From assembly GCF_000744815.1 (NCBI RefSeq), contig NZ_JQMQ01000004.1, forward strand, positions 496,001 to 560,000: a DNA stretch of 64,000 nt, in the 5' to 3' direction. Under the pieces are notes generated by a model that worked only from the letters and a program-made list of their open reading frames with translations, did not search any database and was not told where the DNA came from. The translations under genes were made by a program, and so were the position numbers. This stretch comes from Phaeacidiphilus oryzae TH49 (GTDB lineage Bacteria; Actinomycetota; Actinomycetes; Streptomycetales; Streptomycetaceae). Positions 6,519 to 26,472 of this stretch are shown here, one piece after another; the stretch's first letter is position 1, and each line of letters begins with the position of its first letter.

Positions 6519-6577
6519 GACGCGGCTGACGGCCTCGGCTGAGGGCCCCGGCTGACGGCCCCGGCCCCCGGGTACCG

Positions 6578-6998: not shown

Positions 6999-7219
6999 GA
7001 GTGACCGTCCTCTCTGTGCAGCGCCTCCGGCTTGTGGACGGCCCGACGGCCGGACTTCTCGCTGCGCACCTCGTACTGCGGCTCCTGCGGCGAGGCGTCG
7101 ACGGTTCGGCCGGCCGCCCGGGTGCGGCCGGTGATCCTGCGTGTCACGCGGCCCACGGCACTGCTGCCGTGGCTGCGCCAGGACACCCGGTCGCCCTTCC
7201 GCGGCTTCTGCCTGGACAT
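6995..7219 (-). CDS. DUF2945 (HVA1/TUDOR-like) small protein
   Basis: 74-residue basic protein opening with KGDRVSWRSHG, then GRVTRRITGRT and a YEVRSEKSGRRAVHKPEAL segment, the usual DUF2945 layout of an SH3/Tudor-like barrel. The ATG at 7219 is preceded by GGAAGGAG. It forms a coupled pair with the DUF3140 gene downstream (4-base overlap). Molecular function is unknown. Confidence 0.8.
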   Translation of the reverse strand: MSRQKPRKGDRVSWRSHGSSAVGRVTRRITGRTRAAGRTVDASPQEPQYEVRSEKSGRRAVHKPEALHREDGHS

Positions 7220-7463
7220 GGCGCTCTCCTTCCCGAGGAAGCCCTTGGCACGCGGCTACCCGTTCTGTCGTGTTCACCCGCTCTGGGGCGTTATGCCGCC
7301 ACCCGAGGCCGACTGACGCGCCCAGCCGGGGCCGATCCGGTGCAGCGCCAGCGCGTCCCATCGGCGCACCTCGGCATCGGACGGCGCGCACACCAGGTGA
7401 TCCACCCGCGGCGCGCGGCCCGGCCGCGGCCGCTCACCGCCCGGCACGGCTCCGACGAAGTCG

Positions 7464-7598
7464 GTGGCCAAGGAGATCCAGCTCAACATGTGGGTCCGGT
7501 TCTGCCTGGCCGCCGTCGCGACCTCGGGCGGACGGCTGGTGGACGGGGTGCACATCTCCACCCGCCGGCTGGAGGTGCCGGGCGAAGGGGAGCCGTGA
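7464..7598 (+). CDS. Short unassigned ORF overlapping the SDR start
   Basis: 44 codons from a GTG, ending in a TGA that overlaps the next gene's GTG (GTGA). It contains LNMWVRFCLAAVATSGGRLVDG. I recognise no family. It may be a small coupled leader gene or the tail of a decayed gene; the frame is open only back to about 7401. Confidence 0.3.
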   Translation: MAKEIQLNMWVRFCLAAVATSGGRLVDGVHISTRRLEVPGEGEP

Positions 7599-8482: not shown

Positions 8483-8501
8483 TCACCGGTCGCCGCGCGG
8501 C

Positions 8502-9689: not shown

Positions 9690-9826
9690 ACCTGCCGGCG
9701 CTGACGGGTCGAGGGGTCGACGGTTCTTCGGACGAGGAGGCGGGTGGGCGGGGAGGTCCGGAAGACCGAGGGTAGCCCGTCGGATGCCGCTCCAGAACCC
9801 GGATCGGAGAAAGCGGCGAGTAGGTC

Positions 9827-9837
9827 CGAAATTTTCG
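9827..9837. promoter_or_regulatory. Palindromic element CGAAATTTTCG
   Basis: Perfect match to the CGAAANTTTCG pattern, 138 bp before the P450 start and about 370 bp before the GH11 start. A second palindrome cluster lies at 9969-9982. Confidence 0.5.
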
Positions 9838-9968
9838 ATGAAGTCCCTGCTCCCCGGCCCCACGAGTGCGCGGCTCTCCAGGCAGTCCCGGCGGACCGCA
9901 TCTGAAGGAGAGCGGCAACACGTCTTTGAACTGGGATTTCTCCTCTGGTTTGGTTGATTCGAAGAACA

Positions 9969-9982
9969 GAAAGCTTTCGAAA
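9969..9982. promoter_or_regulatory. Overlapping palindromes GAAAGCTTTC and TTTCGAAA
   Basis: GAAAGCTTTC (9969-9978) and TTTCGAAA (9975-9982) overlap in an AT-rich patch just upstream of the candidate GH11 -35 box. This is a plausible operator or activator site for the xylanase gene. Confidence 0.45.
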
Positions 9983-9997
9983 CTCTTACCGAAGGTA

Positions 9998-11234
<1,237 letters not shown>

Positions 11235-11269
11235 TCCGCGTCCCCTGAGCACCACCCGCCCAGCAGCAC

Positions 11270-11307
11270 GCTGCGGCGCGGCGGCCCCCGGGCCGCGGCG
11301 CCGCAGC
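11270..11307. terminator. Strong bidirectional hairpin
   Basis: Two 18-base arms (11270-11287 and 11290-11307) pair with one mismatch around a 2-base centre. The site lies between the convergent GH11 and GH39 genes and would serve both. Confidence 0.7.
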
Positions 11308-11319
11308 GCCTCCGTCAGC

Positions 11320-12840
11320 TCACTCCGGGCCGAGGCCGAAGAGCCGGCCGCCGTCCCACCACTCCGGCGTCTCGTCGACCACCGGGGTGAGTTCGAGCAG
11401 CGTCACCTCGTTGCGGCCGAGGACGAGGTCCACCTCGGCGCGCCCGCCGGAGACCGGAACGCCGTCGTGCGAGCGTGCGGGCTCGGCGGCCTCGCGCAGG
11501 GCGTCGAGCTGGCGGTCGTTCGGCGCCGGCGGCCGTCCCATCTCGGACCAGGCCGCCCAGGAGTTGCCGGCCTCCTCGCTCACGGAGCGCCGCAGAGCGA
11601 AGGCGGAACCGTGCGACTCGGGGGCGCCCACGGGCAGGGACAGCCGGACGGTGTGGCCGTCGAGGGGCTCGCCGCCGGCCGGGTCGGCCGGGGCCCAGGC
11701 GAGCACCGTGACCCGGCCGTCGCCGTGCCGGGTGACCAGGTGGTCCTCGCCGCGGGCCAGCAGCTGGTCGCCCATCCGGGCCATGAAGGCGTACAGGTGG
11801 TAGGTGGGCTTCTTGATCTGACGGTGGGTCAGCAGGCCGAAGCCGCCGTGGAACAGCGCGGTGGGGATGCCCACCTCCTCGAACACGTCGCTGAACGTCC
11901 AGTACGAGAAGGAGTCCGCCAGGTCGCCGCCGTTCGCCAGCACCGGCGCCAGGTAGGCCGCGTGGAAGGCCGTGTCGTGGATCGGGTTGTCGGGCCGGTA
12001 CGAGGAGTTGAACTCCGTGATGTGCAGCGGCAGATCCGCCAGCCCGGTGCCGGCGAGCTGCCGGCGCGGGGCCGCGAACTGCTCCAGGAGGGCACTGGCC
12101 GGCATCAGCGTCTGGTGCGTCCCGAACGGCACGATCTGCTCGGGGCCGGAGCTGTAGGCGTGCCGGCTGACGAAGTCGATCGGCAGGTCGCGGGAGTCGA
12201 CGAACTCCGCGAACCGCTGAATCCAACCCTCCTCGTAGCCCGGGGCCAGCGAGGGGCCGCCCACCTGGAGTCCGGCGTCCACCTCCTTGACCGCAAGTGC
12301 GGTCACCTCGTAGAGGCGGTGGTAGGCGTCCTGGTCCGCGGCCCAGAACCCGCGCAGATTCGGCTCGTTCCAGACCTCCACGGGCCAGCTTCGGACCTGC
12401 TCCAGGCCGTAGCGGTCGACCAGGTGGCCGAGGACCGCGCGGACCAGCTCCGCCCACTCCCGCTCGTCGTGTGGGGGAGTGACGTTGCCGTTCCACCAGA
12501 AGACGGTGTCCTCGCCGGAGGCCAGCCCCGAGGGCATGAAGCCGAGTTCGAGGAAGGGCGCGATCCCCGACTCCAGATAGGAGTCCACCACCTGGTCGAG
12601 GTAGGTGAAGGCGTGCCGCACCCGCCGCCGCCCGGCGTGGTCGTAGGGCCGGTGGATGCCCATCCCGTCGCTCAGCAGCCCGTGCCCGCGGATGTGCCGG
12701 AAGCCGATCTCCTGCTGCACCAGCCTGAGCGACTCCTGATAGTCGCGCCGCAGCGCGAGGTCGAGCCGGCCTGTGCCCACGCAATGGCGCCAGGCGTCGG
12801 GCAGTTGGGCTGTCGACTGACGTGGGACGACGATCCGCAT
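11320..12840 (-). CDS. GH39 beta-xylosidase, cytoplasmic
   Basis: 506-residue GH39 enzyme expected to release xylose from imported xylo-oligosaccharides. No signal peptide: it starts MRIVVPRQ. The ATG at 12840 is preceded by AAAGGGA. Barrel motifs: FRHIRGHGLLSDGMG, WPVEVWNEPNLRGFW (acid/base Glu) and LHITEFNSSY (nucleophile Glu). A C-terminal beta-sandwich (GRVTVLAWAP onwards) ends with a typical LLELTPV strand. It is divergent from the ABC importer operon across a 378-bp control region, so the enzyme and importer are probably co-regulated. Confidence 0.93.
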   Translation of the reverse strand: MRIVVPRQSTAQLPDAWRHCVGTGRLDLALRRDYQESLRLVQQEIGFRHIRGHGLLSDGMGIHRPYDHAGRRRVRHAFTYLDQVVDSYLESGIAPFLELGFMPSGLASGEDTVFWWNGNVTPPHDEREWAELVRAVLGHLVDRYGLEQVRSWPVEVWNEPNLRGFWAADQDAYHRLYEVTALAVKEVDAGLQVGGPSLAPGYEEGWIQRFAEFVDSRDLPIDFVSRHAYSSGPEQIVPFGTHQTLMPASALLEQFAAPRRQLAGTGLADLPLHITEFNSSYRPDNPIHDTAFHAAYLAPVLANGGDLADSFSYWTFSDVFEEVGIPTALFHGGFGLLTHRQIKKPTYHLYAFMARMGDQLLARGEDHLVTRHGDGRVTVLAWAPADPAGGEPLDGHTVRLSLPVGAPESHGSAFALRRSVSEEAGNSWAAWSEMGRPPAPNDRQLDALREAAEPARSHDGVPVSGGRAEVDLVLGRNEVTLLELTPVVDETPEWWDGGRLFGLGPE

Positions 12841-13078
12841 GGTGATCCCTTTGCTGCGGGAGGGGTGGGGTGGAGGTGGGCGGCGGTCGTGGCCGGCCGG
12901 CCGGGTTTCCGCTCGACGCGCTGCCGCACCATAGGGAGACCGGGAAAACGGCGTCAAGCATCGATACCACCAGGTCTGCGCCCCGGTGGCGTGCTCCGAG
13001 TACGGGAGCCGGGGGTCCGCACGGCCCTGACCCCCGGCTCCCCGCCGTCCCGCTTCGCCCCGCAACCTTCGATAACGA

Positions 13079-13086
13079 TTGCGCAA
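13079..13086. promoter_or_regulatory. TTGCGCAA palindrome, operator candidate
   Basis: One of two copies upstream of the importer operon, 133 bp before the binding-protein start. Same core as upstream of the GH54 and GH31 genes. Confidence 0.5.
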
Positions 13087-13163
13087 CTTGCGAAAACTTG
13101 AGTGTTGCCGCCCTCCCAACTGAGGCGGTACACATGGCTGCGGCTTCGCGAATGGCCGATTAA

Positions 13164-13173
13164 TTTGCGCAAA
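13164..13173. promoter_or_regulatory. TTTGCGCAAA palindrome, operator candidate
   Basis: Perfect 10-bp palindrome, 46 bp before the binding-protein start and 85 bp from the other copy. That distance is about eight helical turns, compatible with looping by a LacI tetramer or with two independent dimers. Confidence 0.55.
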
Positions 13174-13218
13174 GTATTCGCATCATCATGTCGTGACGAC
13201 AGAGCAGGGAGTTCCACG

Positions 13219-14520
13219 ATGGCGAGGAAAACCCACACCGCGACGGCCGTCGCGATCGGCCTGGGCATCGCACTGGCCGCCACCGGCTGTGCCGGAGGCG
13301 GCAGCGCCGGCGGCAGCGGCGGCGGTGCCTCCGGCGGGAAGGTCACGCTGACCGTCTGGGAGAACGCCACGCCCGGGCCCGGGGCGGAGTACTGGCGGCA
13401 GGCCGCGAAGGAGTACCACGCCCTCCACCCGAACGTCACGATCAAGATCCAGTTGGTCCAGAACGAGGACTTCGACGGCAAGCTGCAGACCGCACTCAAC
13501 TCGAACTCCGCGCCGGACATCTTCATGCAGCGCGGCGGCGGCAAGATGCAGGCCATGGTCGACGCCGGCCAGATCCAGCCGCTGGACCTCACCGCCACCG
13601 ACCGGGCCAACGCGGGTGCGGCAGCCCTCGCGGGCAACTCGATCGACGGCAAGGTCTACGCGATGCCGACCGACACCCAGCCCGAGGGCGTCTACTACAG
13701 CAAGGACCTCTTCAAGAAGGCCGGCATCGCCTCGACACCGACGTCCATGGACGCGCTGGAGGCGGATGTCGCCAAGCTGAAGGCGATCAATGTGGCGCCG
13801 ATCGCGGTCGGGGCAAAGGACGCCTGGCCGGCCGCCCACTGGTACTTCAACCTCGCCCTGCGCGAGTGCAGCCGGGACACCATGCAGCAGACCGCCAAGT
13901 CGCTCAAGTTCACCGATCCGTGCTGGACCAAGGCCGGCGAGGACCTGGCATCCTTCCTGAAGACCAGCCCCTTCCAGAAGGGCTTCCTGACCACCTCCTC
14001 GCAGCAGGGCGCCGGGTCGTCGGCGGGCATGCTCGCGAACCACCGGGCGGCGATGGAGCTCATGGGCAACTGGGACCCCGGGGTGATCGCCAGCCTCACC
14101 CCGAACCAGAAGCCGCTTCCCGACCTGGGCTGGTTCCCCTTCCCCGCGGTGCCCGGCGGCCAGGGCGACCCGACCGCCATCATGGGCGGCGGCGGCGGAT
14201 ACTCGCTGTCCAAGAACGCGCCGAAGGAGGCCTTCGGCTTCCTCGAGTTCCTGGTGACCAAGGGTCAGCAGGAGGCGTACGCCAAGGACTTCTACACGAT
14301 CCCGGTGAACAAGGACGCGCAGGCGGTCGTCACCGACTCCTACAACATCTCGGCACTGCAGGCCTTCAACAAGGCCGCGTACACCATGCAGTTCCTTGAC
14401 ACCGAGTACGGGCAGAACGCCGGCAACGCCATGAACACCGCCGTCGTCAACCTGATGGCCGGCAAGGGCACCGCTGCCGACATCGTCAAGGACACCAACG
14501 CCGCTGCCGCGAAGGGCTGA
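13219..14520 (+). CDS. ABC importer sugar-binding lipoprotein
   Basis: 433-residue family 1 extracellular solute-binding protein. The ATG at 13219 follows AGGGAG. Lipobox LAATGC near residue 22, then a Gly/Ser-rich tether and the binding fold (LTVWENATPGPG, YHALHPNVTIKIQ, ALNSNSAPDIF, IMGGGGGYSLSKNAP). It captures the oligosaccharide and delivers it to the two permeases that follow. The neighbouring GH39, GH51 and GH43 genes point to xylo- or arabinoxylo-oligosaccharides. This is an inference from context; the protein itself does not reveal the ligand. Confidence 0.93.
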   Translation: MARKTHTATAVAIGLGIALAATGCAGGGSAGGSGGGASGGKVTLTVWENATPGPGAEYWRQAAKEYHALHPNVTIKIQLVQNEDFDGKLQTALNSNSAPDIFMQRGGGKMQAMVDAGQIQPLDLTATDRANAGAAALAGNSIDGKVYAMPTDTQPEGVYYSKDLFKKAGIASTPTSMDALEADVAKLKAINVAPIAVGAKDAWPAAHWYFNLALRECSRDTMQQTAKSLKFTDPCWTKAGEDLASFLKTSPFQKGFLTTSSQQGAGSSAGMLANHRAAMELMGNWDPGVIASLTPNQKPLPDLGWFPFPAVPGGQGDPTAIMGGGGGYSLSKNAPKEAFGFLEFLVTKGQQEAYAKDFYTIPVNKDAQAVVTDSYNISALQAFNKAAYTMQFLDTEYGQNAGNAMNTAVVNLMAGKGTAADIVKDTNAAAAKG

Positions 14521-14531
14521 GTGCGCAGACG

Positions 14532-15557
14532 ATGAGCGACACCCTGGGTACCCAGGCGGCCACCGGCCGCCGGTCGCAGGGCACGCACCGGGTCGGGGGC
14601 GCGGCCGAGTCCGCGCCCCCGACCCCGCCGCGAGCGGCCGGACGCCGCCGTGGCCGTGCCAGGATGCGACTCGAGATCGCGGTCATGTCCGGACCCGCGA
14701 TCCTGATGTTCCTGGCGTTCGTGATCTTCCCGGTCGCGCTCGCCGCCTACTACGGCTTCTACCGGTGGCACGGCTACGGCCCGCCCACCGACTGGACCGG
14801 CCTCAACAACTACCGGCTGATCCTCACCGACCCCGCGTTCCAGCAGGTGCTGGAGCACAACGCGCTGATCCTGGTGCTCTCGCTGGTCATCCAGGGGCCG
14901 GTGGCGATCGTCCTCGCGCTGCTGCTCAACCAGAAGATCCGCGGCCGCTCGCTGATCCGCGTCCTGATCTTCGTGCCCTACATCATCTCCGAGGTCATCG
15001 TCGGCACCGGCTGGAGTCTGATCCTGCAGCGCGGCGGCGCGTTCAACGACCTCCTCCAGCACATCGGCCTGGGCTCCCTGCAGGCCGACTGGCTGGCCGA
15101 CTCGAAGCTGGCCCTCTGGACCCTGATGGCCCTCATCTCGTGGAAGTACATCGGCTTCGCGGTGATCCTGATGCTCGCCGGGCTCCAGTCGATCCCCGAC
15201 GAGCTCTTCGAGGCCGCCCAGCTCGACGGTGCCTCCTACTGGCAGATCCAGCGGCGGATCACCCTGCCGCTGCTGGGCCCGACCATCCGGATCTGGGCGT
15301 TCCTGTCGATCATCGGCTCGCTGCAGCTGTTCGACCTCGTCTACATCATCTGGGGCCAGTACGTCTCGGGCACCGCGGGCACCTCGACGATGGCGATCTA
15401 CATGGTCTCCCAGGGCCGCGACGCCGGGAACTACGGCTACGGCAGCGCGGTCGCCGTGGTGATGTTCCTGATCTCGCTCGTCGTCGCGCTCCTCTACCAG
15501 CGCTTCGTCCTGCGCCGCGACCTCCGGGGCGCCGTCACCGAAGGAGCCGCCCGATGA
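14532..15557 (+). CDS. ABC sugar importer permease, MalF type
   Basis: 341-residue membrane protein with a basic cytoplasmic N-terminus of about 55 residues and around six membrane segments (first: AVMSGPAILMFLAFVIFPVALAA split at the usual P). The coupling-helix EAA motif reads ELFEAAQLDGASYWQIQRRITLPLL. It starts 12 bp after the binding-protein stop and overlaps the next permease by 4 bases (ATGA). No ATPase gene is present in the operon; in streptomycetes a shared MsiK-type ATPase usually serves such importers. Confidence 0.93.
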   Translation: MSDTLGTQAATGRRSQGTHRVGGAAESAPPTPPRAAGRRRGRARMRLEIAVMSGPAILMFLAFVIFPVALAAYYGFYRWHGYGPPTDWTGLNNYRLILTDPAFQQVLEHNALILVLSLVIQGPVAIVLALLLNQKIRGRSLIRVLIFVPYIISEVIVGTGWSLILQRGGAFNDLLQHIGLGSLQADWLADSKLALWTLMALISWKYIGFAVILMLAGLQSIPDELFEAAQLDGASYWQIQRRITLPLLGPTIRIWAFLSIIGSLQLFDLVYIIWGQYVSGTAGTSTMAIYMVSQGRDAGNYGYGSAVAVVMFLISLVVALLYQRFVLRRDLRGAVTEGAAR

Positions 15558-16456
15558 GCGCGACGAGTGCCGATTCCTGGTTCTCCCCCTCCGCCGAGGC
15601 GGGGGCGCCTAGCGGGGGCCGCGCGGGCCGCGGCAGGCCGGAGCGGTGGGGGAGCCCCCTCACCTACTTCGTGGCCCTCCTCTTCATCGCGGTCTGCGTC
15701 GCACCGGTGCTCTACATCGTGCTGGGCGGCTTCCGCACCAACTCCCAGATCACCACCCGGCCGGCCGCCCTCCCGCACCCCTGGGTCCTCGGCAACTACG
15801 CCGGCGTCCTCAGGTCGACGACGTTCTGGGGCGAATTCGCCAACTCCGTCATCGTCGCCCTGGCGAGCACGCTCGGTATCGTCGTCCTCGGCCTGATGGT
15901 GAGCTTCGTCATCGCGCGCTACGACTTCAGGCTCAAGGGGGCGATGTACTCGCTGTTCGCGGCCGGTCTGATGTTCCCCATGGTCATCGCGATCACCCCG
16001 CTGTACATCGTGGTCAAGGACCTCGGCCTGGTCGACAACCTCCTCGGCGTGATCATCCCGCAGATCGCCTTCGGGCTGCCGACGACCGTGATCATCCTGG
16101 TGCCGTTCCTCAGGGCCATCCCGAACGAGATCGAGGAGGCCGCCGCCATCGACGGGGCGAGCCGGCTCGGCTTCTTCTTCCGCATGGGGGTGCCGCTGTC
16201 GCTGCCCGGTGTGGCGACCGTCGGCATCCTGTCGTTCATCGGCAGCTGGAACAACTACGTGCTGCCCCTGTACATGCTCAACTCGCAGGCGAACTACACG
16301 CTGCCGCTCGGCGTCCAGGCGTTCTCCTCGCAGTACTCCTCGGACACCGCGAAGGTCCTCGCCTTCACCTCCCTCGCCATGCTGCCCGCGCTGCTCTTCT
16401 TCTCGATCTTCCAAAAGCGGATCGTCGGCGGGCTGACCGGCGCCGTCAAGGGCTGA
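15554..16456 (+). CDS. ABC sugar importer permease, MalG type
   Basis: 300-residue partner permease. The ATG at 15554 overlaps the upstream stop (ATGA) and has AAGGAG 7 bases before it. About six membrane segments (PLTYFVALLFIAVCVAPVLY is the first). The EAA loop reads EIEEAAAIDGASRLGFFFRMGVPLSLPG. It forms the translocation pore with the MalF-type subunit. It is followed after 27 bp by the GH51 gene, so import and hydrolysis are in one operon. Confidence 0.93.
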   Translation: MSATSADSWFSPSAEAGAPSGGRAGRGRPERWGSPLTYFVALLFIAVCVAPVLYIVLGGFRTNSQITTRPAALPHPWVLGNYAGVLRSTTFWGEFANSVIVALASTLGIVVLGLMVSFVIARYDFRLKGAMYSLFAAGLMFPMVIAITPLYIVVKDLGLVDNLLGVIIPQIAFGLPTTVIILVPFLRAIPNEIEEAAAIDGASRLGFFFRMGVPLSLPGVATVGILSFIGSWNNYVLPLYMLNSQANYTLPLGVQAFSSQYSSDTAKVLAFTSLAMLPALLFFSIFQKRIVGGLTGAVKG

Positions 16457-16483
16457 ACCGACCCACAGAGAAGGACCACCGAA

Positions 16484-17983
16484 TTGCCCCGCGCCCATAT
16501 CGAGCTCGACCGGCAGGCCGTCATCGCCCCCGTCCGACGCCGTACCTTCGGCTCCTTCGTCGAGCACCTCGGCCGCTGCGTGTACACCGGCCTCTACGAG
16601 CCGGAGCACCCGAGCGCGAACGAGGAGGGGTTCCGCATGGACGTCGTGGAACTCGTCAGGGAGCTCGGCAGCACCACCGTCCGCTACCCGGGCGGCAACT
16701 TCGTCTCCGGCTTCCGCTGGGAGGACTCGGTCGGCCCACGCGAGAAGCGCCCGGTGCGCCGCGACCTCGCCTGGCACTCGCTGGAGTCCAACCAGGTCGG
16801 CCTCGACGAGTTCGCCCGGTGGCTCAAGCTCACCGACTCGGAACTGATGCTGGCGGTCAACGTCGCCACCCGGGGGATCCTGCCGGCCCTGGACCTCCTC
16901 GAGTACGCCAACCACCCCTCGGGGACGGCCCTGTCGGACCTGCGGATCGCCAACGGCACCCCCGACCCGCACAACGTGCGGATGTGGTGCCTGGGCAACG
17001 AGATGGACGGCCCCTGGCAGACCGGATACATGGCCGCGGACGACTACGGCAAGACGGCCGCCCGCACCGCCGCGGCGATGAAGGCGGCCGACAAGGACCT
17101 CGAACTGGTCGTCTGCGGCTCCTCCGGGTCCGGCATGCCGACCTTCGGCGACTGGGAGCGGACGGTGCTCGAGCACGCCTACGAGCACGTGGACTACGTC
17201 TCCTGCCACGCGTACTACCAGGAGCACGACGGCGACCTCGGCTCGTTCCTCGCCTCGGCGCTCGACATGGACCACTTCATCGACGCCGTCGTCACCACCG
17301 CCGACCACGTCGGGCACAAGAAGCACTCCCGGAAGAGGATCAACGTCTCCTTCGACGAGTGGAACGTCTGGTATCTGACGGAGCATCAGAAATCCGCCGA
17401 GGTCAACGACGAGTGGCGGCACGCCCCCCGTCAGCTGGAGGACGTCTACTCGGTGGCGGACGCCGTGGTCGTCGGCAACCTGCTGATGACGCTCCTCAAG
17501 CACAGCGACCGCCTCACCTCGGCATCGCTCGCCCAACTCGTCAACGTGATCGCGCCGATCATGACCGAGCCCGGCGGGCCGGCCTGGCGCCAGACGACCT
17601 TCTACCCGTTCTCGATCACCAGCCGGCTCGCGGCCGGCGAGGTGATCCGCCCGGTGATCGAGGCGCCGGTCTACCGGACGGCGCGGCACGGCGAGGCGCC
17701 CGTGGTGGACGCCGTCGCCACGGTGGACGAGGACCGGGCCGCGGTCTTCCTCGTCAACCGCGACCTGGGCGAGGTCGCCCGGGTCACGGTCGACGTGCGC
17801 GGCCTCGGCTCCTCGCGCGTCGCCGAGGCGGTCACCCTCGCCGACGCCGACGTGTACGCCAGGAACACCCTCGCTGAGCAGCACCGGGTGACCCCGACCG
17901 CGAACAAGAGCGCGACTCTCGCCGACGGCCTGCTGAGCATCGAGCTGCCGCCGGTCTCCTGGACGGCGATCGCCCTGCGGTGA
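16484..17983 (+). CDS. GH51 alpha-L-arabinofuranosidase, cytoplasmic
   Basis: 499-residue enzyme that removes arabinofuranosyl units from imported oligosaccharides. It uses a TTG start at 16484 with GAAGGA 8 bases upstream. No signal peptide. Motifs: RTFGSFVEHLGRCVYTGLYE, VRYPGGNFVSGF, CLGNEMDGPW (acid/base Glu) and NVSFDEWNVWY (nucleophile Glu), then a C-terminal beta-sandwich. Length and start are typical of streptomycete intracellular AbfA enzymes. Last gene of the importer operon; downstream is a 19-bp tandem repeat array and the convergent LacI gene. Confidence 0.95.
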   Translation: MPRAHIELDRQAVIAPVRRRTFGSFVEHLGRCVYTGLYEPEHPSANEEGFRMDVVELVRELGSTTVRYPGGNFVSGFRWEDSVGPREKRPVRRDLAWHSLESNQVGLDEFARWLKLTDSELMLAVNVATRGILPALDLLEYANHPSGTALSDLRIANGTPDPHNVRMWCLGNEMDGPWQTGYMAADDYGKTAARTAAAMKAADKDLELVVCGSSGSGMPTFGDWERTVLEHAYEHVDYVSCHAYYQEHDGDLGSFLASALDMDHFIDAVVTTADHVGHKKHSRKRINVSFDEWNVWYLTEHQKSAEVNDEWRHAPRQLEDVYSVADAVVVGNLLMTLLKHSDRLTSASLAQLVNVIAPIMTEPGGPAWRQTTFYPFSITSRLAAGEVIRPVIEAPVYRTARHGEAPVVDAVATVDEDRAAVFLVNRDLGEVARVTVDVRGLGSSRVAEAVTLADADVYARNTLAEQHRVTPTANKSATLADGLLSIELPPVSWTAIALR

Positions 17984-18012
17984 GCGGCGGCCCGACAGCT
18001 GCCGGGGCCGCT

Positions 18013-18107
18013 TCATCGGCGGCGGGCCGTCTCGTCGGCGGCGGGCCGTCTCATCGGCGTCGGCGCGCCTCATCGGTGGCGGCCCGTCTCACCGGCGCCG
18101 GGCCGCG
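18013..18107. repeat. Five 19-bp tandem direct repeats
   Basis: Units begin at 18013, 18032, 18051, 18070 and 18089, each close to TCATCGGCGGCGGGCCGTC. The last unit forms the 3' end of the convergent LacI gene and supplies its stop codon. This looks like expansion of the regulator's 3' end into the intergenic gap. It may also act as a structured terminator. Confidence 0.75.
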
Positions 18108-19147
18108 CCCTTCGCGGCGGGCCCGGTGGAGGAGCGGACGACCAGTTCGGTGGCCAGCTCCATGCGGGCGGGCCGCCGAACGCCCTCGTCCTCGCCGCGG
18201 GTGAGCTCCCGCAGGAGCTTGACCGCCTCGGCGCCCAACTCGGTGCTCGGCTGCCGGACGGTGGTCAGCCGGGGGCTGACCCAGTCCGCCTCCGGCAGGT
18301 CGTCGAAGCCGATCACGCTGACGTCCTCGGGCACCCGCAGCCCTCGGGCGCGCAGCGTGTCGTAGACGCCCACCGCCATGGAGTCCGCGCAGGCGAAGAC
18401 CGCGGTGATCCCCGGGTCCTTCTCCAGCAGCGTCTGGGTGGCCGCCGCCGCTCGGCCCCGGTTCCAGTCGCCGTAGGCAACGGACACCGTCGCGCCGCCG
18501 GCCGACGCGGTTTCGGCCGCCGCGCGGAACCCGTCGACGCGCGCCCGGCTGTAGAGGTGCCGGGCGTGGCCGGCGACGACCCCCAGGCGCTGGTGGCCGA
18601 GGGACAGCAGATGCTCGGCGGCGATCCGGCCGCCGTTCCAGTTCGCCACGCCGATGCTCGCCGCGCCGGACGGCGGCGTGCTCATGGGGTCGATCAGCAC
18701 CATCGGCACGCCCGCCGCGGAGAGCGCGTTGAACTGCCGCGAGGTGGGATCGACCAGCACCCCGATGGCGCCGAGGGCGCGCCTCCGCAGGAGGCGGGAC
18801 ACCCAGTCGCTGTCCGGATCGGCGAGCGTCAGCACGACGTCCAGCCCCGCTGCCGCCGCCTCGCGGCCGACCCCCGCGATCACCAGATTGGCCCACGAGC
18901 CCTCGAAGTGGGTGACCACCAGGTCGAGGAGGTTGCGCAGCCCGCCTTCGTCCCCCGGCGCCTCGATCTTGGCCCCGCCGCGGCGGGTGTAGCCGACCTC
19001 CCGCACCGCCTCCATGACCTTGGCGCGGGTCTCGGCCGAGACGTCGGTTCCGCCGCGCAGCACCTTGGACACGGTGGGCACGCTGGTACCGGCGGTCTCG
19101 GCGACCAGTGACAGAGTCGGGCGCGATCCGGCGGGTCGGGGAGACAT
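18089..19147 (-). CDS. LacI-family transcriptional regulator of the hemicellulose locus
   Basis: 352 residues. N-terminal helix-turn-helix LVAETAGTSVPTVSKVLRGG and hinge, then a periplasmic-binding-like sugar domain (VVTHFEGSWANLVIAGV, DLPEADWVSPRLTTVRQP, ELVVRSSTGPA). It follows the GH43 gene by 29 bp on the same strand, so they probably share a transcript. A GGTTAACC palindrome (19155-19162) lies just before its start. It is the most likely binder of the TTGCGCAA sites flanking the importer operon. This is an inference from position and operator type. Confidence 0.9.
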   Translation of the reverse strand: MSPRPAGSRPTLSLVAETAGTSVPTVSKVLRGGTDVSAETRAKVMEAVREVGYTRRGGAKIEAPGDEGGLRNLLDLVVTHFEGSWANLVIAGVGREAAAAGLDVVLTLADPDSDWVSRLLRRRALGAIGVLVDPTSRQFNALSAAGVPMVLIDPMSTPPSGAASIGVANWNGGRIAAEHLLSLGHQRLGVVAGHARHLYSRARVDGFRAAAETASAGGATVSVAYGDWNRGRAAAATQTLLEKDPGITAVFACADSMAVGVYDTLRARGLRVPEDVSVIGFDDLPEADWVSPRLTTVRQPSTELGAEAVKLLRELTRGEDEGVRRPARMELATELVVRSSTGPAAKGAARRR

Positions 19148-19176
19148 GGGGAAAGGTTAACCAGCAAGGGGGCTGT

Positions 19177-20712
19177 TCAGGGGGCCGGGGCCGGAGCCGG
19201 CCGGTAATCGAAGCGGTCGAATGCCACCGTGCCCTCGGTGGCGTACATGCCGATGACGCGTCCGGTGAAGCCGCAGGCGACCTCGGTGGAGAGGTACCGG
19301 CCGTCGAGCTCGGCCAGCAGCCGGGCCTCCGGGGCGTCCGGATCGCCCAGCCAGAAGGCGAGGGTGTCCGGTCCTGTGGTCCCGCCGTCGGTCAGTTCGG
19401 GGGAGGCGGGGACGAGGTCGGAGGTCCGGATCGCCACGGTCAGGGTCAGCGGGCCGGACGGGACCGGGAGGGTGGCCACGGTCTGCCGCAGCGGGCCGAT
19501 CCGCGCCACCACGGCGACCGCGCCGTTCCCCGCCTCCAGTGCGTAGTGGTGGGCCTCGTCCAGGCGGACGGCCAGGCCGCCGCGTCCGGTGCCGGGGTCG
19601 ATCAGCACCGCGGCCCGGCAGTCGTGGTGCTGCTGGCGGCGGCCGACGAAGGTGTAACCGGGACGGTCGAGGGTGGGCCCGGTGGCGGTGAGGGTCAACC
19701 AGCCGGGGCGCTCGCCGAGCGACCAGGAGCCGGCGGGCCGGGCGAACGGCGAGATCCAGTGCGGCGCGAGCTCCGGCGCGTCGAAGTCGTCCCGGGGCGC
19801 CGGCTGTTCGACGGGGTGCCAGGCTCCGCCCGGTGCCGGATGGGTCTCGGGCACGGGCGCGACGACGGGCCAGCCGTCCGGGTCCCACTCGACGGGGGTC
19901 AGGAAGGTCTCGCGGCCGAGGACGTGGACGTCCGGGGTGAATCCGCGGGGACGGACGCCGAGCAGCACCATCCACCAGCCGCCGTCCGGCGCCTCCACCA
20001 GGTCGCCGTGGCCGGTGTTCTGGATGGACCGGGCGGTACCGCTGTGCGACAGCAGGGGGTTGGCCGGCGCCCCCTCCCAGGGGCCGCGCGGCGAGCGGCT
20101 GCGGGCGATGGAGACGCTGTGCCCGCGCTCGGTGCCGCCCTCGGCGATCAGCAGGTACCACCAGTCGCCTATCCGGTAGAGGTGCGGGGCCTCGGGGTAC
20201 TTCAGCCCGCTGCCGGACCAGGTGGCGAAGGGTCCCTCCAGCACCTCGCCCTCGACCGGGTCGATCCTGGCCAGGTTGATACCGCCCGCGGGCCCGGAGA
20301 AGGCGCACCAGCAGGTGCCGTCCTCCTCCCAGGCCAGATCCGGGTCGATGCCCTCCAGGTCGATCCAGACCGGGTCGCTCCACGGCCCCTCGGGCCGCTC
20401 GGCCGTGACCACGAAGTTGCCGCCGCCGTCGATGTTGGTGTTGATCACCCAGTAACGGCCGTCGTGGTGGCGGATCGTGGGCGCGTAGAGCCCCCCGGAC
20501 GCCTTGGCGCCGGGGAAGGGCAGCGGCAGCTGCTCCTGCCGGTCGAGCACGTTGCCGATCTGCTCCCAGTGGACGAGGTCCTTGCTGTGGAAGATCGGCA
20601 GACCGGGGAAGTACTCGAAGCTGGAGCACACGAGGTAGTAGTCGTCCCCCACCCGGCACACGCTCGGGTCGGGGTGGAACCCGCCGATCACCGGGTTCTG
20701 GTACCTGTACAC
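19177..20712 (-). CDS. GH43 beta-xylosidase / alpha-L-arabinofuranosidase, cytoplasmic
   Basis: 511-residue GH43 enzyme. The GTG at 20712 is chosen because AGAGGAAG lies about 8 bases upstream and the protein then begins VYRYQNPVIGGFHPDPS, the canonical N-terminus. Five-blade propeller residues: Asp in GFHPDPSV (base), Asp in GIDPDLAW, and Glu in KYPEAPHLYR (acid). The C-terminal half is the beta-sandwich accessory domain of the longer GH43 subfamilies (DDFDAPELAPHW onwards). No signal peptide. Transcribed with the LacI gene; divergent from the snapalysin gene. Confidence 0.93.
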   Translation of the reverse strand: MYRYQNPVIGGFHPDPSVCRVGDDYYLVCSSFEYFPGLPIFHSKDLVHWEQIGNVLDRQEQLPLPFPGAKASGGLYAPTIRHHDGRYWVINTNIDGGGNFVVTAERPEGPWSDPVWIDLEGIDPDLAWEEDGTCWCAFSGPAGGINLARIDPVEGEVLEGPFATWSGSGLKYPEAPHLYRIGDWWYLLIAEGGTERGHSVSIARSRSPRGPWEGAPANPLLSHSGTARSIQNTGHGDLVEAPDGGWWMVLLGVRPRGFTPDVHVLGRETFLTPVEWDPDGWPVVAPVPETHPAPGGAWHPVEQPAPRDDFDAPELAPHWISPFARPAGSWSLGERPGWLTLTATGPTLDRPGYTFVGRRQQHHDCRAAVLIDPGTGRGGLAVRLDEAHHYALEAGNGAVAVVARIGPLRQTVATLPVPSGPLTLTVAIRTSDLVPASPELTDGGTTGPDTLAFWLGDPDAPEARLLAELDGRYLSTEVACGFTGRVIGMYATEGTVAFDRFDYRPAPAPAP

Positions 20713-20902
20713 GGATGCACTTCCTCTGCTGGTCGCGGACGGACGAACGGACGAGGTGACGGGCGGTTCTCCGGAGCCGGACGGCGCCCGGGGACATCGT
20801 TCCAGCCCGCGCGGCGGAGGGGACGCTCTCCTCACAAGTTGTCATGTCCGTGGTAAGAAGGGACGGTTCGAGCGCAGACAACCAAGGAGGCGCATCAGCC
20901 TT

Positions 20903-21622
20903 ATGAGCAATCGCCTAGCCGCCGCCGCGGCACTGGTTCCGGTCGTGCTGGCGGCCACTCTCGGAGTCGCCTCGGCGGACTCCGCGCAGGCCGCCGCGCG
21001 GCCGGGGGCCGCCGTGGTCACCCTGACCTACGACGACAGTCAGGCCGGAGCCACCTGGGAGAGCGCGATCGACCAGGCCGTGGCCAACTGGAACGCCGCG
21101 GTCCACAACGTCCACCTGCAGAAGGCCGCTTCGCCCGGTTCGGCCGACTACACCTATGTGGCCACCGACGGCTGGCCGCAGACCACCCTCGGGCCGATCG
21201 TCCCCGGCGGCGCCAAGGGCGAGGTCGACCTCGGAAGCCAGGCCCTGGACCAGGGCTACGACGCCACCCGCGTCACCGCCCACGAGACCGGGCACATCTT
21301 CGGCCTCCCGGACGACTACAGCGGGCCCTGCTCCGAGCTGATGTCCGGTCACGGTCCGGGCCCCTCCTGTACGAACGCCGTCCCCTCGGCCGCGGAGGCC
21401 GCCCAGGTGGACGAGAACTACGCGGGCGGCGCCGGCGCCCTCCGGGCCGGCCCCACCCCGTCGTCACCGACGTCTGGGCCGCCTCCCCGGCCACTGCCGG
21501 GACCGCTGCCGGGTCCGCTGACCGGGCCGCTGCCGGGTCCGCTGACCGGGCCGCTGCCGGGTCCGCTGCCCGGTAGACCACCCGCGGCGCCGCCTGACGC
21601 GCGGTGGTCGATGTCCCGCTAA
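20903..21622 (+). CDS. Snapalysin-like secreted metalloprotease (M7) with Gly-Pro-Leu repeat tail
   Basis: 239 residues. The ATG at 20903 follows AAGGAGG. Signal peptide ends near residue 33 (DSAQAAA). The zinc-binding motif HETGHIFGLPDD (HExxHxxGxxD) and CSELMSGHGPG are typical of the streptomycete small neutral protease snapalysin. The C-terminus from about residue 185 is a Pro-rich tail with repeated GPLPGPLTGPLPG units encoded by near-perfect DNA repeats (about 21490-21575). Such a tail is not usual for the family. The stop overlaps the stop of the convergent LacI gene. I see no LysR (SnpR-type) activator beside it. Confidence 0.88.
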   Translation: MSNRLAAAAALVPVVLAATLGVASADSAQAAARPGAAVVTLTYDDSQAGATWESAIDQAVANWNAAVHNVHLQKAASPGSADYTYVATDGWPQTTLGPIVPGGAKGEVDLGSQALDQGYDATRVTAHETGHIFGLPDDYSGPCSELMSGHGPGPSCTNAVPSAAEAAQVDENYAGGAGALRAGPTPSSPTSGPPPRPLPGPLPGPLTGPLPGPLTGPLPGPLPGRPPAAPPDARWSMSR

Positions 21623-22677
21623 GCCCCGTCGGCGGGCGCGGGGCCGGTGCTCTCCCGGACGATCAGCCGGGTGGCCAGCTCCATGCTGACCGCCTCGTGG
21701 GCATGGCCGTCGAGTTGGCGCATCAGCATCGTGACGGCGGTCCTGCCCATCTCCAGCAGGGGCTGGCGGACCGTCGTCAGGCGGGGGGAGGCGGCCCGGC
21801 TGACGTCGATGTCGTCGAAGCCGGTCACCGACAGGTCCTCGGGGACCCGCAGCCCGCGCTCCCTGGCCGCCTCCAGCACGCCGACGGCGACCTTGTCGTT
21901 GTAGCAGACCACCGCCGTCGGCCGCGGACCGAGGTCGAGCAGTTCGCCACCCGCCCGCAGCCCGGTCTCCGTCGCGGGCTCGCCATGGCGCAGCAGCCCG
22001 GGATCGCCGAGCAGACCGGCCTCCGAGAGCGCCGCGAGGTGGCCGCCCACCCGGTCGTCCCGGGAGTGCCAGGCGGCCGGCCCGGTGATCAGGCCGATCC
22101 GGCGATGGCCGAGCTCCACCAGGAGGCGGGTGACGGCGCGGGCGCCGGAGAAGTGCGCCGCCGAGACCGACATCGTGCCGCGCGGCACGGTGACCCGCGG
22201 ATCGATCACCACGAACGGGTAGCCGCGCGCGGCCAGCGCCTCCAGATCGGCGCGCGGCTCGGGCGGCAGGATCAGCACCGCGCCGCGGACGTCCCGCCGG
22301 CCGGGCAGCTCGCGGAGCGCCGTCGAGCCGACCACCGCGTCCCCCGCGTCGAGCAGCATGGCCCGGCCGCGCAGGGCCAGCGTCTCGGCGACCGAGGTCA
22401 CGATGTGCCCGAAGTAGTCGGTCAGCAGGTAGGGGCAGCGGACGAAGACCGGCAGCCGCGACTCCGGCCCGCGGGCCCGCGGCCGCGGCTCCGGCGCGCG
22501 CCCGCCGAGCCGGTCCACCACCTGCCGTACCCGCTCGCGGGTGGCGGGCGCGACGCCGTCCGCGCCGTTCAGCACCCGGGAGACGGTCGCGATGGACAGC
22601 CCGGTCTGCGCGGCGATCGCGCGCACCGTGACCCGGCCGCCCGCCTCGTCGCCCTTCGAAACAGAGCTCTGTTTCAT
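21619..22677 (-). CDS. LacI-family regulator of the GH18/beta-helix operon
   Basis: 352 residues from the ATG at 22677, which has GGGGAAG upstream; an alternative ATG at 22698 lacks a ribosome binding site. Helix-turn-helix VRAIAAQTGLSIATVSRVLNG and sugar-binding C-terminal domain (VTGFDDIDVSRAASPRLTTVRQP). Its first codons carry a perfect 18-bp palindrome (22658-22675), suggesting autoregulation. Divergent from the GH18 gene, whose leader holds a related GTTTC/GAAAC inverted repeat, so it probably controls that pair. Confidence 0.9.
   Translation of the reverse strand: MKQSSVSKGDEAGGRVTVRAIAAQTGLSIATVSRVLNGADGVAPATRERVRQVVDRLGGRAPEPRPRARGPESRLPVFVRCPYLLTDYFGHIVTSVAETLALRGRAMLLDAGDAVVGSTALRELPGRRDVRGAVLILPPEPRADLEALAARGYPFVVIDPRVTVPRGTMSVSAAHFSGARAVTRLLVELGHRRIGLITGPAAWHSRDDRVGGHLAALSEAGLLGDPGLLRHGEPATETGLRAGGELLDLGPRPTAVVCYNDKVAVGVLEAARERGLRVPEDLSVTGFDDIDVSRAASPRLTTVRQPLLEMGRTAVTMLMRQLDGHAHEAVSMELATRLIVRESTGPAPADGA
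22658..22675. promoter_or_regulatory. Perfect 18-bp palindrome GAAACAGAGCTCTGTTTC
   Basis: It lies inside the first codons of the LacI gene (AAA CAG AGC TCT GTT). This is either an operator embedded in coding DNA or a sign that translation starts further in. The half site GAAACA/TGTTTC recurs at 22770-22792. Confidence 0.6.
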
Positions 22678-22769: not shown

Positions 22770-22792
22770 GTTTCTGAAGTTGTTTCAGAAAC
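22770..22792. promoter_or_regulatory. Operator-like inverted repeat before GH18 gene
   Basis: Arms GTTTCTGAA (22770-22778) and TTCAGAAAC (22784-22792) pair perfectly over a 5-base spacer. It shares GTTTC/GAAAC half sites with the LacI palindrome at 22658. Confidence 0.55.
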
Positions 22793-22816: not shown

Positions 22817-24193
22817 ATGCGTCCCACGAAGTCGGCGCGCCGGGTCCGAGTACCCGGCGCCGCGCTGGCCGCCGTCCTGGCCGGCCTCGGCCTCGGTTTC
22901 ACCGGCTCGACGCCGGCCGCCGCGGCGGGCGGCGCCTTCCCCGCCCACTACGCCGCGCCGTACCTGCAGATCTCCTCCTCCGACGCCGGCGACATGGCCG
23001 CGGACCAGTCCGCGACCGGCTTGAAGGACTACACCCTGGCCTTCCTCATCCCCAAGTCCGGCTGCACGCCGGAGTGGGAGGACGACGGCTCCGGAGTCGG
23101 CGCGTTCTCGTCGCAGATCAGCTCGCTCCAGTCGTCCGGCGGCAACGTCATCGTCTCCTTCGGCGGCGCCTCCGGCGGAGAGCTCGCGCAGACCTGCACC
23201 AGCGTCTCCTCGCTCACCGCCGCGTACAAGAACGTGGTCGACACCTACGGCGTGACGCGGCTCGACTTCGACATCGAGGGCGGCGTCCTCTCCGACACCG
23301 CCGCCACCACCCGGCGCGACCAGGCACTGGCCGCTCTGCAGGCCGAGGACCCGTCCGTACAGGTGGACTTCACCCTGGCAGTGGCCCCGGACGGACTGCC
23401 CACCGGCAGTGGCTCCGAGTACGCGCTGCTGCAGGACGCGCGCTCGCAGGGGGTGAAGGTCACCACCGTCAACCTGATGACCATGGACTTCGGCGACGGC
23501 CAGAACGCCCTCGCGGACGCCGAGTCGGCCGCCCAGGCCTCTGCCTCGCAGCTGGCCGGCCTGTACGGGATCTCGACCTCCGCCGCCTACGGGATGATGG
23601 GCCTGACCCCGATCGCCGGGCAGAACGACGACAACGAGTACTTCTCCACCTCGGACGCCGCCACGCTGGAGAGCTTCGCCGCCGCCAAGGGCGTCGGCGA
23701 GCTGTCCTTCTGGGAGGTGGACGGCTACGACAAGCCGACCGGCTACCAGTACTCGTCCCTCTTCAACGCGATCACCGGCAGCAGCAGCAGCGGCGGTGGC
23801 GGCGGCACCGGGACGGGCACCGGGCAGATCACCGGCTACCAGGGCCTGTGCCTGGACGACCAGTCGGCGAGCACCGCCGACTACAACCCGATCCAGGTCT
23901 ACACCTGCAACGGGACCGGCGCCCAGCAGTGGACCGCCGGCTCGGACGGCACGCTGAGGGTCCTCGGCAAGTGCCTGGACGTGGACGCGGCGGGCACCGC
24001 GAACGGCACCAAGGTCGACCTGTACGGCTGCAACGGCACCGCCGCCCAGGTCTGGCAGCACCAGTCCAACGGCGAGCTGGTCAACCCCAACTCCGGCAAG
24101 TGCCTGGACGACACCGGGTACGGCGGCTCCGGGACCCAGGTGCAGATCTGGAGCTGCGCCGACACCGCCAACCAGATCTGGACCCTGCCGTGA
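22817..24193 (+). CDS. Secreted GH18 chitinase-like enzyme with C-terminal CBM13
   Basis: 458 residues. The ATG at 22817 follows AAGGGAT. Signal peptide to about residue 38 (STPAAAA). The GH18 barrel has SFGGASGG, LDFDIEGG (DxxDxDxE-type, acid Glu), MTMDFGDG and ELSFWEVDGYD. A Ser/Gly linker leads to a CBM13 trefoil of 121 residues. GH18 includes chitinases and endo-N-acetylglucosaminidases; the missing CBM5/12 and the presence of a CBM13 leave the substrate open. The stop overlaps the GTG of the next gene (GTGA), so the two proteins are translationally coupled. Confidence 0.9.
   Translation: MRPTKSARRVRVPGAALAAVLAGLGLGFTGSTPAAAAGGAFPAHYAAPYLQISSSDAGDMAADQSATGLKDYTLAFLIPKSGCTPEWEDDGSGVGAFSSQISSLQSSGGNVIVSFGGASGGELAQTCTSVSSLTAAYKNVVDTYGVTRLDFDIEGGVLSDTAATTRRDQALAALQAEDPSVQVDFTLAVAPDGLPTGSGSEYALLQDARSQGVKVTTVNLMTMDFGDGQNALADAESAAQASASQLAGLYGISTSAAYGMMGLTPIAGQNDDNEYFSTSDAATLESFAAAKGVGELSFWEVDGYDKPTGYQYSSLFNAITGSSSSGGGGGTGTGTGQITGYQGLCLDDQSASTADYNPIQVYTCNGTGAQQWTAGSDGTLRVLGKCLDVDAAGTANGTKVDLYGCNGTAAQVWQHQSNGELVNPNSGKCLDDTGYGGSGTQVQIWSCADTANQIWTLP
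23828..24190 (+). repeat. Direct repeat of CBM13 module, copy 1
   Basis: 363 bp encoding a 121-residue CBM13 at the end of the GH18 protein. It is highly similar to 24424-24786, the module at the start of the next protein, and exactly the same length. This indicates a local duplication. Confidence 0.85.
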
Positions 24194-26472
24194 GCGGCCG
24201 TATCGGCGCGCGCGGCGGCGTGCGTATCGGCGCGCGCGCCGGCGCCCGCGCCGGCAGCCGGGCGGGAGCGCGGGCGCGCCTGGCTGCCGTCCTCGCCGTG
24301 GCGGCCCTGCTCCTCGCCGCGTTCAACGCCCTGACCCCGCAGCACGCGCAGGCCGCCGCCAGACCCGCCGCAACGCCCAACGCCAAGCCCGGCACCACGC
24401 CCAACGCCACTCCCGCCGGCGCGATCGTCGGCTACCAGGGCCTGTGCCTGGACGACCGCTCCGCCTCCACGGCCGACGGCAACCCTGTGCAGGTCTACAC
24501 CTGCAACGGGACCGCGGCGCAGCAGTGGACCGTGGCCTCGGACGGCACCCTCCGCACCCTCGGCAAGTGCCTGGACGTCGCCGGGGCCGGCACCGCCGAC
24601 GGCACCGCGGTGGACCTCTACACCTGCAACGGGACGGTCGCCCAGGTCTGGCAGCCGCGGTCGGACGGCGAGCTGGTCAACCCCGACTCCGGTAAGTGCC
24701 TGGACGACACCGGGTACGGCGGCTCCGGCACCCAGGCGCAGATCTGGAGCTGCGCCGGCACCGCCAACCAGACCTGGACCCTGCCCACCGCCACCGCGCC
24801 CGGCAACACCCCGGCCCTCGGCCCGAACGTCTACGTCTTCGACACCTCCATGTCGACCACCACGATCCAGAACGACATCGACGCCGTCTACGCGACCCAG
24901 GAGTCGAACCAGTTCGGTAACCAGCGCTACGAGTTGATGTTCGAGCCGGGGACGTACGACGTGTCGGTCCCGGTCGGCTTCTACACCGAGGTGGTGGGCC
25001 TCGGCCAGAACCCCTCGCAGACCGTGATCACCGGGGGCGGCATCCACGCCGACGCGGCCTGGAGCAACGGCAACGCCACCCAGAACTTCTGGCGCGGGGT
25101 GGAGAACATCACCATCGACCCGTCCTCCGGTTCCACCGAGTGGGCGGTCTCCCAGGCCTCGCCGATGCGCCGGGTGAACATCGACGGCAACCTGGTGCTG
25201 GACGACGACACCTCGGGGAACACCACCAGCAACTGGTCCTCCGGCGGCTTCCTCGGCGACTCGGTGGTCACCGGGCAGGTCGACTCCGGCACCCAGCAGC
25301 AGTTCCTCTACCGCAACGACCGGTTCGGCGGCTACACCGGATCCAACTGGAACATGGTCTTCGTCGGCACCGGCGGCGCGCCCGCGCAGAGCTTCCCCAG
25401 CCCGCCCGACACCACGGTCGGCCAGACCCCGACCGTGGACGAGAAGCCCTACCCCTACGTCGACGGCTCAGGGAACTGGAACGTCTTCGTCCCCGGTACC
25501 CGGACCGGCTCGCAGGGGGTGTCCTGGGCGAACGGCGACACCCCAGGCACCTCGCTGCCGATCGGCGACTTCTACATCGCCACCCCCGGCGACACGGCCG
25601 ACCAGCTCAACTCGGCGCTCGCCGCGGGCAAGGACCTGCTGTTCACCCCGGGCGTCTACCAGATCGACGGCACCCTCGACGCCACCGACCCGGACACCGT
25701 CGTCCTCGGCCTGGGCCTGGCCACGCTGGTCTCCGACAACGGCGACACCGTCCTGAAGACGGCGGACGTGAACGGCGTCCGCATCGGCGGCCTGCTCTTC
25801 GACGCGGGCACCACCAACTCCCCGGTGCTGGTGGAGATCGGCCCGAACGGCTCCAGCGCCTCGCACGCCGGCGACCCGACCGTGCTCTCCGACGTCTTCG
25901 CCCGGATCGGGGGAGCGACGGTCGGCAGGGCCACCGAGACCCTGGAGGTGAACAGCTCCGACGTGATCGGCGACGACCTGTGGCTGTGGCGCGCCGACCA
26001 CGGCAACAGCGGCACGGTCGGCTGGAACACCAACACCGCCGCCAACGGACTGGTGGTCAACGGCGCCCGCGTGACCATGTACGGCCTTGCCGTCGAGCAC
26101 TACCAGGCCGTCCAGACCCAGTGGAACGGCGACGGCGGAGCCGACTACTTCTACCAGAGCGAGATGCCCTACGACCCGCCGGACCAGGCCAGCTGGATGG
26201 ACGGCTCGTCCGACGGCTACCCCTCGATCGCCCTCGCCGGCTCGGTGACCGGCTTCCAGGGCTACGGGCTCGGCGTCTACTGCTACTTCAGCGCGAACTC
26301 CGGCGTGGCCGCAGCCAACGCGTTCACCTCGCCCACCGTTTCCGGGGTGCAGTGGCACGACATGGTCACCGTCTCCCTGGGCGGCGTCGGCACCATCGAC
26401 CACGTCATCGACGGCACCGGCCCCACGGTCCGCTCAGGCAGCACCGTCGGCTATCTGACCAGCTACAACTGA
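24190..26472 (+). CDS. Secreted CBM13 plus right-handed beta-helix protein of unknown activity
   Basis: 760 residues starting at a GTG that overlaps the GH18 stop. An unusual Arg/Ala/Gly-rich n-region of about 30 residues precedes the hydrophobic signal core and an AQA cleavage site. Then comes CBM13 (about 79-199) and a long beta-solenoid domain with repeated short strands (FEPGTYDVSVPVGFYTEVVGLG, NFWRGVENITIDP, GVRIGGLLFDAGT, EVNSSDVIGDDLWLWRADHG). Relatives in actinomycetes are often labelled adenylyl cyclase or coagulation factor 5/8-type protein, names I consider uninformative. The fold suggests polysaccharide cleavage; no activity can be assigned from the sequence. It probably acts on the same material as the GH18 enzyme. 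Confidence 0.85.
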   Translation: MSGRIGARGGVRIGARAGARAGSRAGARARLAAVLAVAALLLAAFNALTPQHAQAAARPAATPNAKPGTTPNATPAGAIVGYQGLCLDDRSASTADGNPVQVYTCNGTAAQQWTVASDGTLRTLGKCLDVAGAGTADGTAVDLYTCNGTVAQVWQPRSDGELVNPDSGKCLDDTGYGGSGTQAQIWSCAGTANQTWTLPTATAPGNTPALGPNVYVFDTSMSTTTIQNDIDAVYATQESNQFGNQRYELMFEPGTYDVSVPVGFYTEVVGLGQNPSQTVITGGGIHADAAWSNGNATQNFWRGVENITIDPSSGSTEWAVSQASPMRRVNIDGNLVLDDDTSGNTTSNWSSGGFLGDSVVTGQVDSGTQQQFLYRNDRFGGYTGSNWNMVFVGTGGAPAQSFPSPPDTTVGQTPTVDEKPYPYVDGSGNWNVFVPGTRTGSQGVSWANGDTPGTSLPIGDFYIATPGDTADQLNSALAAGKDLLFTPGVYQIDGTLDATDPDTVVLGLGLATLVSDNGDTVLKTADVNGVRIGGLLFDAGTTNSPVLVEIGPNGSSASHAGDPTVLSDVFARIGGATVGRATETLEVNSSDVIGDDLWLWRADHGNSGTVGWNTNTAANGLVVNGARVTMYGLAVEHYQAVQTQWNGDGGADYFYQSEMPYDPPDQASWMDGSSDGYPSIALAGSVTGFQGYGLGVYCYFSANSGVAAANAFTSPTVSGVQWHDMVTVSLGGVGTIDHVIDGTGPTVRSGSTVGYLTSYN
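24424..24786 (+). repeat. Direct repeat of CBM13 module, copy 2
   Basis: Second 363-bp module, at the N-terminus of the beta-helix protein. It starts 596 bp after copy 1. Confidence 0.85.

Follow-up and report, generated by a model that had tools for sequence, protein, structure and literature searches.

A GH18-GH55 gene pair with twin CBM13 modules in Phaeacidiphilus oryzae: a predicted fungal-wall-degrading operon

The 64,000-nucleotide stretch of the Phaeacidiphilus oryzae TH49 genome that we analyzed (contig NZ_JQMQ01000004.1, positions 496,001 to 560,000; hereafter the window, in whose own numbering coordinates are given) contains two overlapping genes at 22817-26472 that encode a glycoside hydrolase family 18 (GH18) protein and a family 55 (GH55) protein, each bearing a carbohydrate-binding module of family 13 (CBM13). 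The pair is probably a two-gene operon for degrading fungal walls, in which a chitinase and a beta-1,3-glucanase would be expressed behind a dedicated LacI-type regulator. It is a conserved pairing of known enzyme families behind one regulator; we found no description of a GH18-GH55 operon or fusion in the open-access papers searched.

We envisage that a divergent gene supplies the LacI-type repressor, which would occupy two palindromes within the intergenic region of 140 bp until a sugar derived from the wall released it and permitted a single transcript of the pair. The GH55 frame may then be translated by re-initiation at a GTGA overlap, and both proteins would be secreted. The GH18 enzyme would cut chitin while the GH55 enzyme takes glucose off beta-1,3-glucan; the near-identical CBM13s would anchor both to the same material, each enzyme exposing the substrate of the other. 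A preliminary description of this DNA had pictured a two-protein system for one polysaccharide. We reject a single shared polysaccharide, as the polymers cut by GH18 and GH55 differ (chitin and beta-1,3-glucan, respectively). What the two polymers share is a material, for both are major constituents of the fungal wall.

Two predicted enzymes encoded in overlapping frames

Both genes lie on the forward strand. The GH18 chitinase-type gene (22817-24193) starts with ATG and encodes 458 residues with an N-terminal signal peptide (by eye), and the GH55 gene (24190-26472) starts with GTG and encodes 760 residues, again with an N-terminal signal sequence (by eye). Open reading frame calls place the GTGA start/stop overlap at 24190-24193, and Pfam places a CBM13 at the C-terminus of the first protein and at the N-terminus of the second, so that the gene architecture given in the preliminary description stands in each of these respects. 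The N-terminus of the GH55 protein (24190-24290) has an arginine/glycine/alanine-rich stretch, VSGRIGARGGVRIGARAGARAGSRAGARAR, before its hydrophobic core, which corresponds in the DNA to a GC-rich tandem repeat (24-bp/12-bp). In relatives the signal peptide is short and ordinary.

The GH18 catalytic domain (22925-23752) scores 25.5 bits against Pfam PF00704, under the 29.6-bit cut-off. The earlier assignment to GH18 nevertheless holds, given the matches to two solved chitinases, 9buf (E 2e-57) and 2dsk (E 5e-38), and the DxDxE catalytic motif, which is present as DFDIE (D150-x-D152-x-E154; 23264-23278). The first gene is thus predicted to encode a GH18 chitinase that hydrolyzes chitin. Like 9BUF (Exochitinase 1) and 2DSK/3A4X (chitinase), with which its catalytic domain can be aligned across 260-270 residues, it has DxDxE; it differs from them in its C-terminal CBM13 and in its GH55 partner gene, whose frame overlaps its own.

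The second protein had been taken for a beta-helix of a widespread but functionally unassigned family. It looks unassigned because our domain scans drew no Pfam or NCBIfam hit to the beta-helix domain, and on those scans alone one might suppose an unassigned activity working with GH18 on one polysaccharide. We consider that reading very improbable. A sequence search of solved structures matched the protein to the laminarinase SacteLam55A of Streptomyces sp. SirexAA-E (4pew, E 5e-164; alignment E 1.7e-164 over 542 residues). Fold prediction and a structure search again led to GH55: an AlphaFold2 model with a predicted local distance difference test (pLDDT) score of 87.8 superposes on SacteLam55A in Foldseek with a template modelling (TM) score of 0.97 by target length, at 1.5-1.7 A and 47% identity in the structural match (4pex, TM 0.97, root-mean-square deviation 1.7). 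In this model the catalytic domain (24814-26469) has the GH55 rib cage of two tandem beta-helical domains. By sequence and by model, the beta-helix domain is GH55.

The active site points the same way. All eleven SacteLam55A residues compared (T149, F152, Q174, S198, W444, W446, D449, E480, H481, E502 and Y505) are conserved in the window protein, and these catalytic, subsite -1 and aromatic-block residues are invariant across 30 relatives. In SacteLam55A, E502 is the general acid and Y505 an adjusting residue, T149, S198, Q174 and E480 form a proton relay, W446, D449 and H481 make up subsite -1, and F152, W444 and W446 the aromatic block (PMC10637969); the predicted catalytic acid of the window protein, equivalent to E502, is E658 (codon 26161-26163). 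GH55 members act on laminarin (PMC10637969), and SACTE_4363 is a biochemically characterized GH55 laminarinase (PMC12772271). The second protein is thus predicted to cut beta-1,3-glucan of the laminarin type. Two positions of the outer cleft differ from SacteLam55A (the Phe beside W143 and Y194 are both replaced by Ser), so that exo action is probable rather than assured.

The fold, the catalytic and subsite -1 residues and the aromatic block are thus common to the window protein and SacteLam55A/SACTE_4363 (PDB 4PEW and others), whereas the N-terminal CBM13 (the crystallized chains align to the GH55 part only) and the GH18 partner gene set the window protein apart. The fungal enzymes PcLam55A and MnLam55A have the same catalytic residues (PMC10637969) and the rib-cage fold (Foldseek ranks 6-9), but are distant from the window GH55, sharing 14-16% identity with it in the structural match, and exceed SacteLam55A in length by about 200 residues. 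A second GH55 homologue in this genome (L205, G000:C5:1788500-1792500) is 51% identical and has one TGA within the matched stretch.

Conserved pairing and twin CBM13 modules

The pair is conserved beyond this genome. Among 80 GH55 loci taken from GTDB species genomes by similarity to our query, and so not a random sample, a complete GH18 domain lies in the flanks of 42 (43 counting a fragment at locus L086). Other partners are GH19 (five loci), GH30 (four), GH16 (three), GH3 (two), and a GH54-type enzyme and PL7 (one each), while control scans of the same loci for GH10, 11, 12, 27, 39, 43, 51, 75 and NagZ-type GH3 returned none. On these partner counts we reject chance adjacency of GH18 and GH55. 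The exact window layout, in which GH18-CBM13 is followed by CBM13-GH55 and the two frames overlap by ATGA or GTGA at the equivalent place, occurs in Actinospica, Trebonia and Catenulispora, and a separate 61-genome family sample has the twin layout in 10 genomes, not all of them necessarily distinct strains. A sample of the genus comprised this genome alone. One genome of the Catenulispora-type group (L106/L199, G050:C817) has the LacI gene and CBM13-GH55 with no GH18 between them, apparently through loss or as an earlier state.

It could be argued that the adjacency was inherited from one ancient operon rather than repeatedly selected, since many of the linked loci are Streptomyces of one layout and the counts are not independent events. 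We find this unlikely. Several GH18 lineages are paired with GH55 (that of the window, the L041/L050 type, the L020/L027 type and the AIDIDIEAD type, with Ktedonobacter L092 apart), in three relative arrangements (GH18 then GH55, GH55 then GH18, and divergent), and on the GH55 tree the linkage switches at least 15 times. The GH55 domain of Catenulispora falls in another GH55 clade, whereas its GH18 domain and CBM13s remain in the window's group on our trees, so that the catalytic half has been exchanged there. Exchange of partners beside GH55 is also visible in Catellatospora, which has LacI, GH30-CBM13 and CBM13-GH55, in several Streptomyces, where CBM13-GH19 follows GH55, and in S. phaeofaciens, where a CBM13-bearing GH16 precedes it.

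The two modules were described at the outset as highly similar and of the same length, and indeed copy A (23807-24190; PF00652, Ricin_B_lectin, E 4e-28; residues 335-455 of the GH18 protein) and copy B (24406-24789; PF00652, E 3e-29; residues 77-196 of the GH55 protein) are each 128 residues long, with 80% protein and 84% DNA identity, far above chance. Copy B matches the structure of the Streptomyces module 1knl with a TM score of 0.92 by target length, as a three-fold beta-trefoil. This fold is common to the xylan-binding CBM13s of Streptomyces xylanases (1KNL, 1ISV), at 42-48% identity in the structural match, but the window modules fall in another sequence group and keep the NQxW form in the third subdomain only, in both copies (by eye). 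The nearest other CBM13s in the genome are carried by a GH16 enzyme (71%) and a GH30 enzyme (59%), and in relatives the window's CBM13 group occurs on GH18/55, GH16, GH3, GH19 and GH30 proteins. Members of GH18, GH19, GH30, GH16, GH3 and GH55 commonly act on chitin, beta-1,3-glucan or beta-1,6-glucan, and for this reason we take the fungal wall to be the probable target.

The divergent LacI gene and the neighboring hemicellulose locus

On the reverse strand, facing away from the pair, lies a gene for a LacI-family regulator of 352 residues (21619-22677; Pfam LacI PF00356, E 1e-10; Peripla_BP_3 PF13377, E 2e-39). At every twin-CBM13 locus examined, an orthologue that is 57-79% identical occupies this divergent position, and another, 64% identical, occurs in Streptacidiphilus jeojiense, where GH55 precedes GH18. 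A perfect 18-bp palindrome, GAAACAGAGCTCTGTTTC, lies just inside the LacI start (22658-22675), as a putative autoregulatory operator, and an inverted repeat, GTTTCTGAAGTTGTTTCAGAAAC, lies just before GH18 (22770-22792), as a second putative operator with the core GTTTCAGAAAC at 22782-22792. With up to one mismatch allowed, GAAACAGAGCTCTGTTTC occurs once in the 7.8-Mb genome, and the GTTTCAGAAAC core is its sole exact GTTTCnGAAAC. The uniqueness of both palindromes implies a dedicated switch, and we suggest that the LacI protein controls the pair and its own gene through these candidate operators.

In relatives, the arms of the GAAACAGAGCTCTGTTTC palindrome are conserved and its middle varies, and the GTTTCAGAAAC core, identical or with one mismatch, is found upstream at almost every twin locus and also at L055. 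Other GH55 loci, 985 kb in total, contain six near-matches for the core but none for the GAAACAGAGCTCTGTTTC palindrome. The core is absent from Actinospica L021, and at the Catellatospora and L050 loci the LacI gene is present without either motif.

Several observations weigh against a dedicated fungal-wall operon. Roughly half of the GH55 loci lack a neighboring GH18, and the second GH55 of this genome (C5:1789690) is unlinked. A GH18-CBM13-GH55 fusion in genome G006, described below, has no LacI gene in the approximately 4 kb examined upstream, and a consensus scan found no sigma-70-like promoter, scanning for promoters and terminators being uninformative here. In relatives the window's CBM13 group is also found on PL7-type alginate-lyase-like, GH12, ThuA, GH31 and GH59 proteins, so that to regard it as a marker of fungal-wall enzymes alone would be too strong. 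The substrate of a GH55 enzyme could, moreover, be callose from plants or laminarin from algae, and the pair adjoins a plant hemicellulose locus with its own LacI (GH27, GH10, GH54-type, GH39 and GH43).

That neighborhood raises the possibility that the pair belongs to the hemicellulose cluster, that callose or some other beta-1,3-glucan of non-fungal origin is the substrate of its GH55, and that the pairing with GH18 is incidental. To the left, genes of GH27, GH10, GH54-type, GH39, GH51-type and GH43 all fall within 22 kb, and several of them carry CBM13s. Those modules are mostly only about 39% identical to the CBM13s of the pair, however, and GH10, 11, 27, 39, 43 and 51 are found at none of the 80 GH55 loci, against GH18 sequence at 43. 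The pair also has its own regulator, with palindromes found nowhere else in the genome. Membership of the hemicellulose cluster seems improbable to us on this evidence, and the fungal-wall operon remains our preferred reading.

The hemicellulose locus itself spans 1381-20835 and comprises CBM13-bearing GH27, GH10 and GH54-type genes, GH39, GH51-type and GH43 genes, sugar ABC transporter genes and a LacI gene of its own. Between the GH43 gene and the LacI gene of the pair, 20903-21622 encodes a secreted protease that resembles snapalysin (Peptidase_M7) and ends in a tail of proline-rich repeats. The window lies on a separate 0.89-Mb contig (G000:C4, 894342 bases) beside a 6.86-Mb contig.

Twin modules, fused proteins and partner exchange

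The likeness of the two modules differs among lineages. Twins of the Actinospica type are 89-96% identical, and at four-fold sites they are 79-90% identical within a genome versus about 45-72% when compared with other genomes. Trees that unite the four A copies in one clade are rejected (approximately unbiased test, p-AU 9e-7). Homogenization by gene conversion is the simplest reading of these twins. The window twins are 66% alike at four-fold sites, which is indistinguishable from between-genome values and argues against recent conversion here, and the Catenulispora twins, at 72-79%, are no closer than the copies of sister species.

Two relatives encode GH18-CBM13-GH55 as one polypeptide, with a single CBM13 and an uninterrupted frame. 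The first, in G006 (L103/L179), is 81% identical to the window proteins in GH18, 70% in CBM13 and 67% in GH55, and its GH18 is of the window's lineage; the second, in Streptantibioticus silvisoli (L020), has a GH18 from another lineage. The preliminary description had suggested an intermediate of gene fusion or fission. That idea gains direct support from G006, where a closely related pair forms a single polypeptide; the trees give no direction to the change. That the fusions derive from the twins by recombination between the repeats fits their anatomy and is not shown by the trees.

It is possible, if somewhat doubtful, that the twin layout is a snapshot of such a process, with in-register recombination between the CBM13s yielding GH18-CBM13-GH55, or the reverse. 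Recombination of this kind would delete the stop codon, the second signal peptide and one CBM13 in one step, and the fused proteins have exactly one CBM13 and an unbroken frame, as this would predict. The excess likeness of the Actinospica-type twins within genomes, together with the rejection of an A-copy clade, also favors it. Against it, neither fusion nests in the twin clade on the GH55 tree, where L020 is the sister of that clade and L103 lies further out; the window and Catenulispora twins are no closer than between-genome copies; and repeated or independent duplications could mimic conversion between twins. It is tempting to speculate further, and quite tentatively, that the twin CBM13s are an evolutionary hinge, their likeness, kept by conversion, permitting both switching between two co-targeted secreted proteins and a single bifunctional chitinase/beta-1,3-glucanase and the exchange of catalytic partners (GH18 lineages, GH30, GH16 and GH19; GH55 clades), while the targeting module and the LacI switch stay in place.

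In summary, a pair of supposedly unassigned function becomes a testable fungal-wall unit for which a substrate, a switch and a class of inducer are predicted, and which may bear on the recycling of fungi by actinomycetes or on their attack on fungi. The GH18-CBM13-GH55 fusions offer natural bifunctional enzymes that can be compared with the split pair. Moreover, the twin CBM13s may offer a view of how parts are exchanged and fused in secreted multi-enzyme systems.

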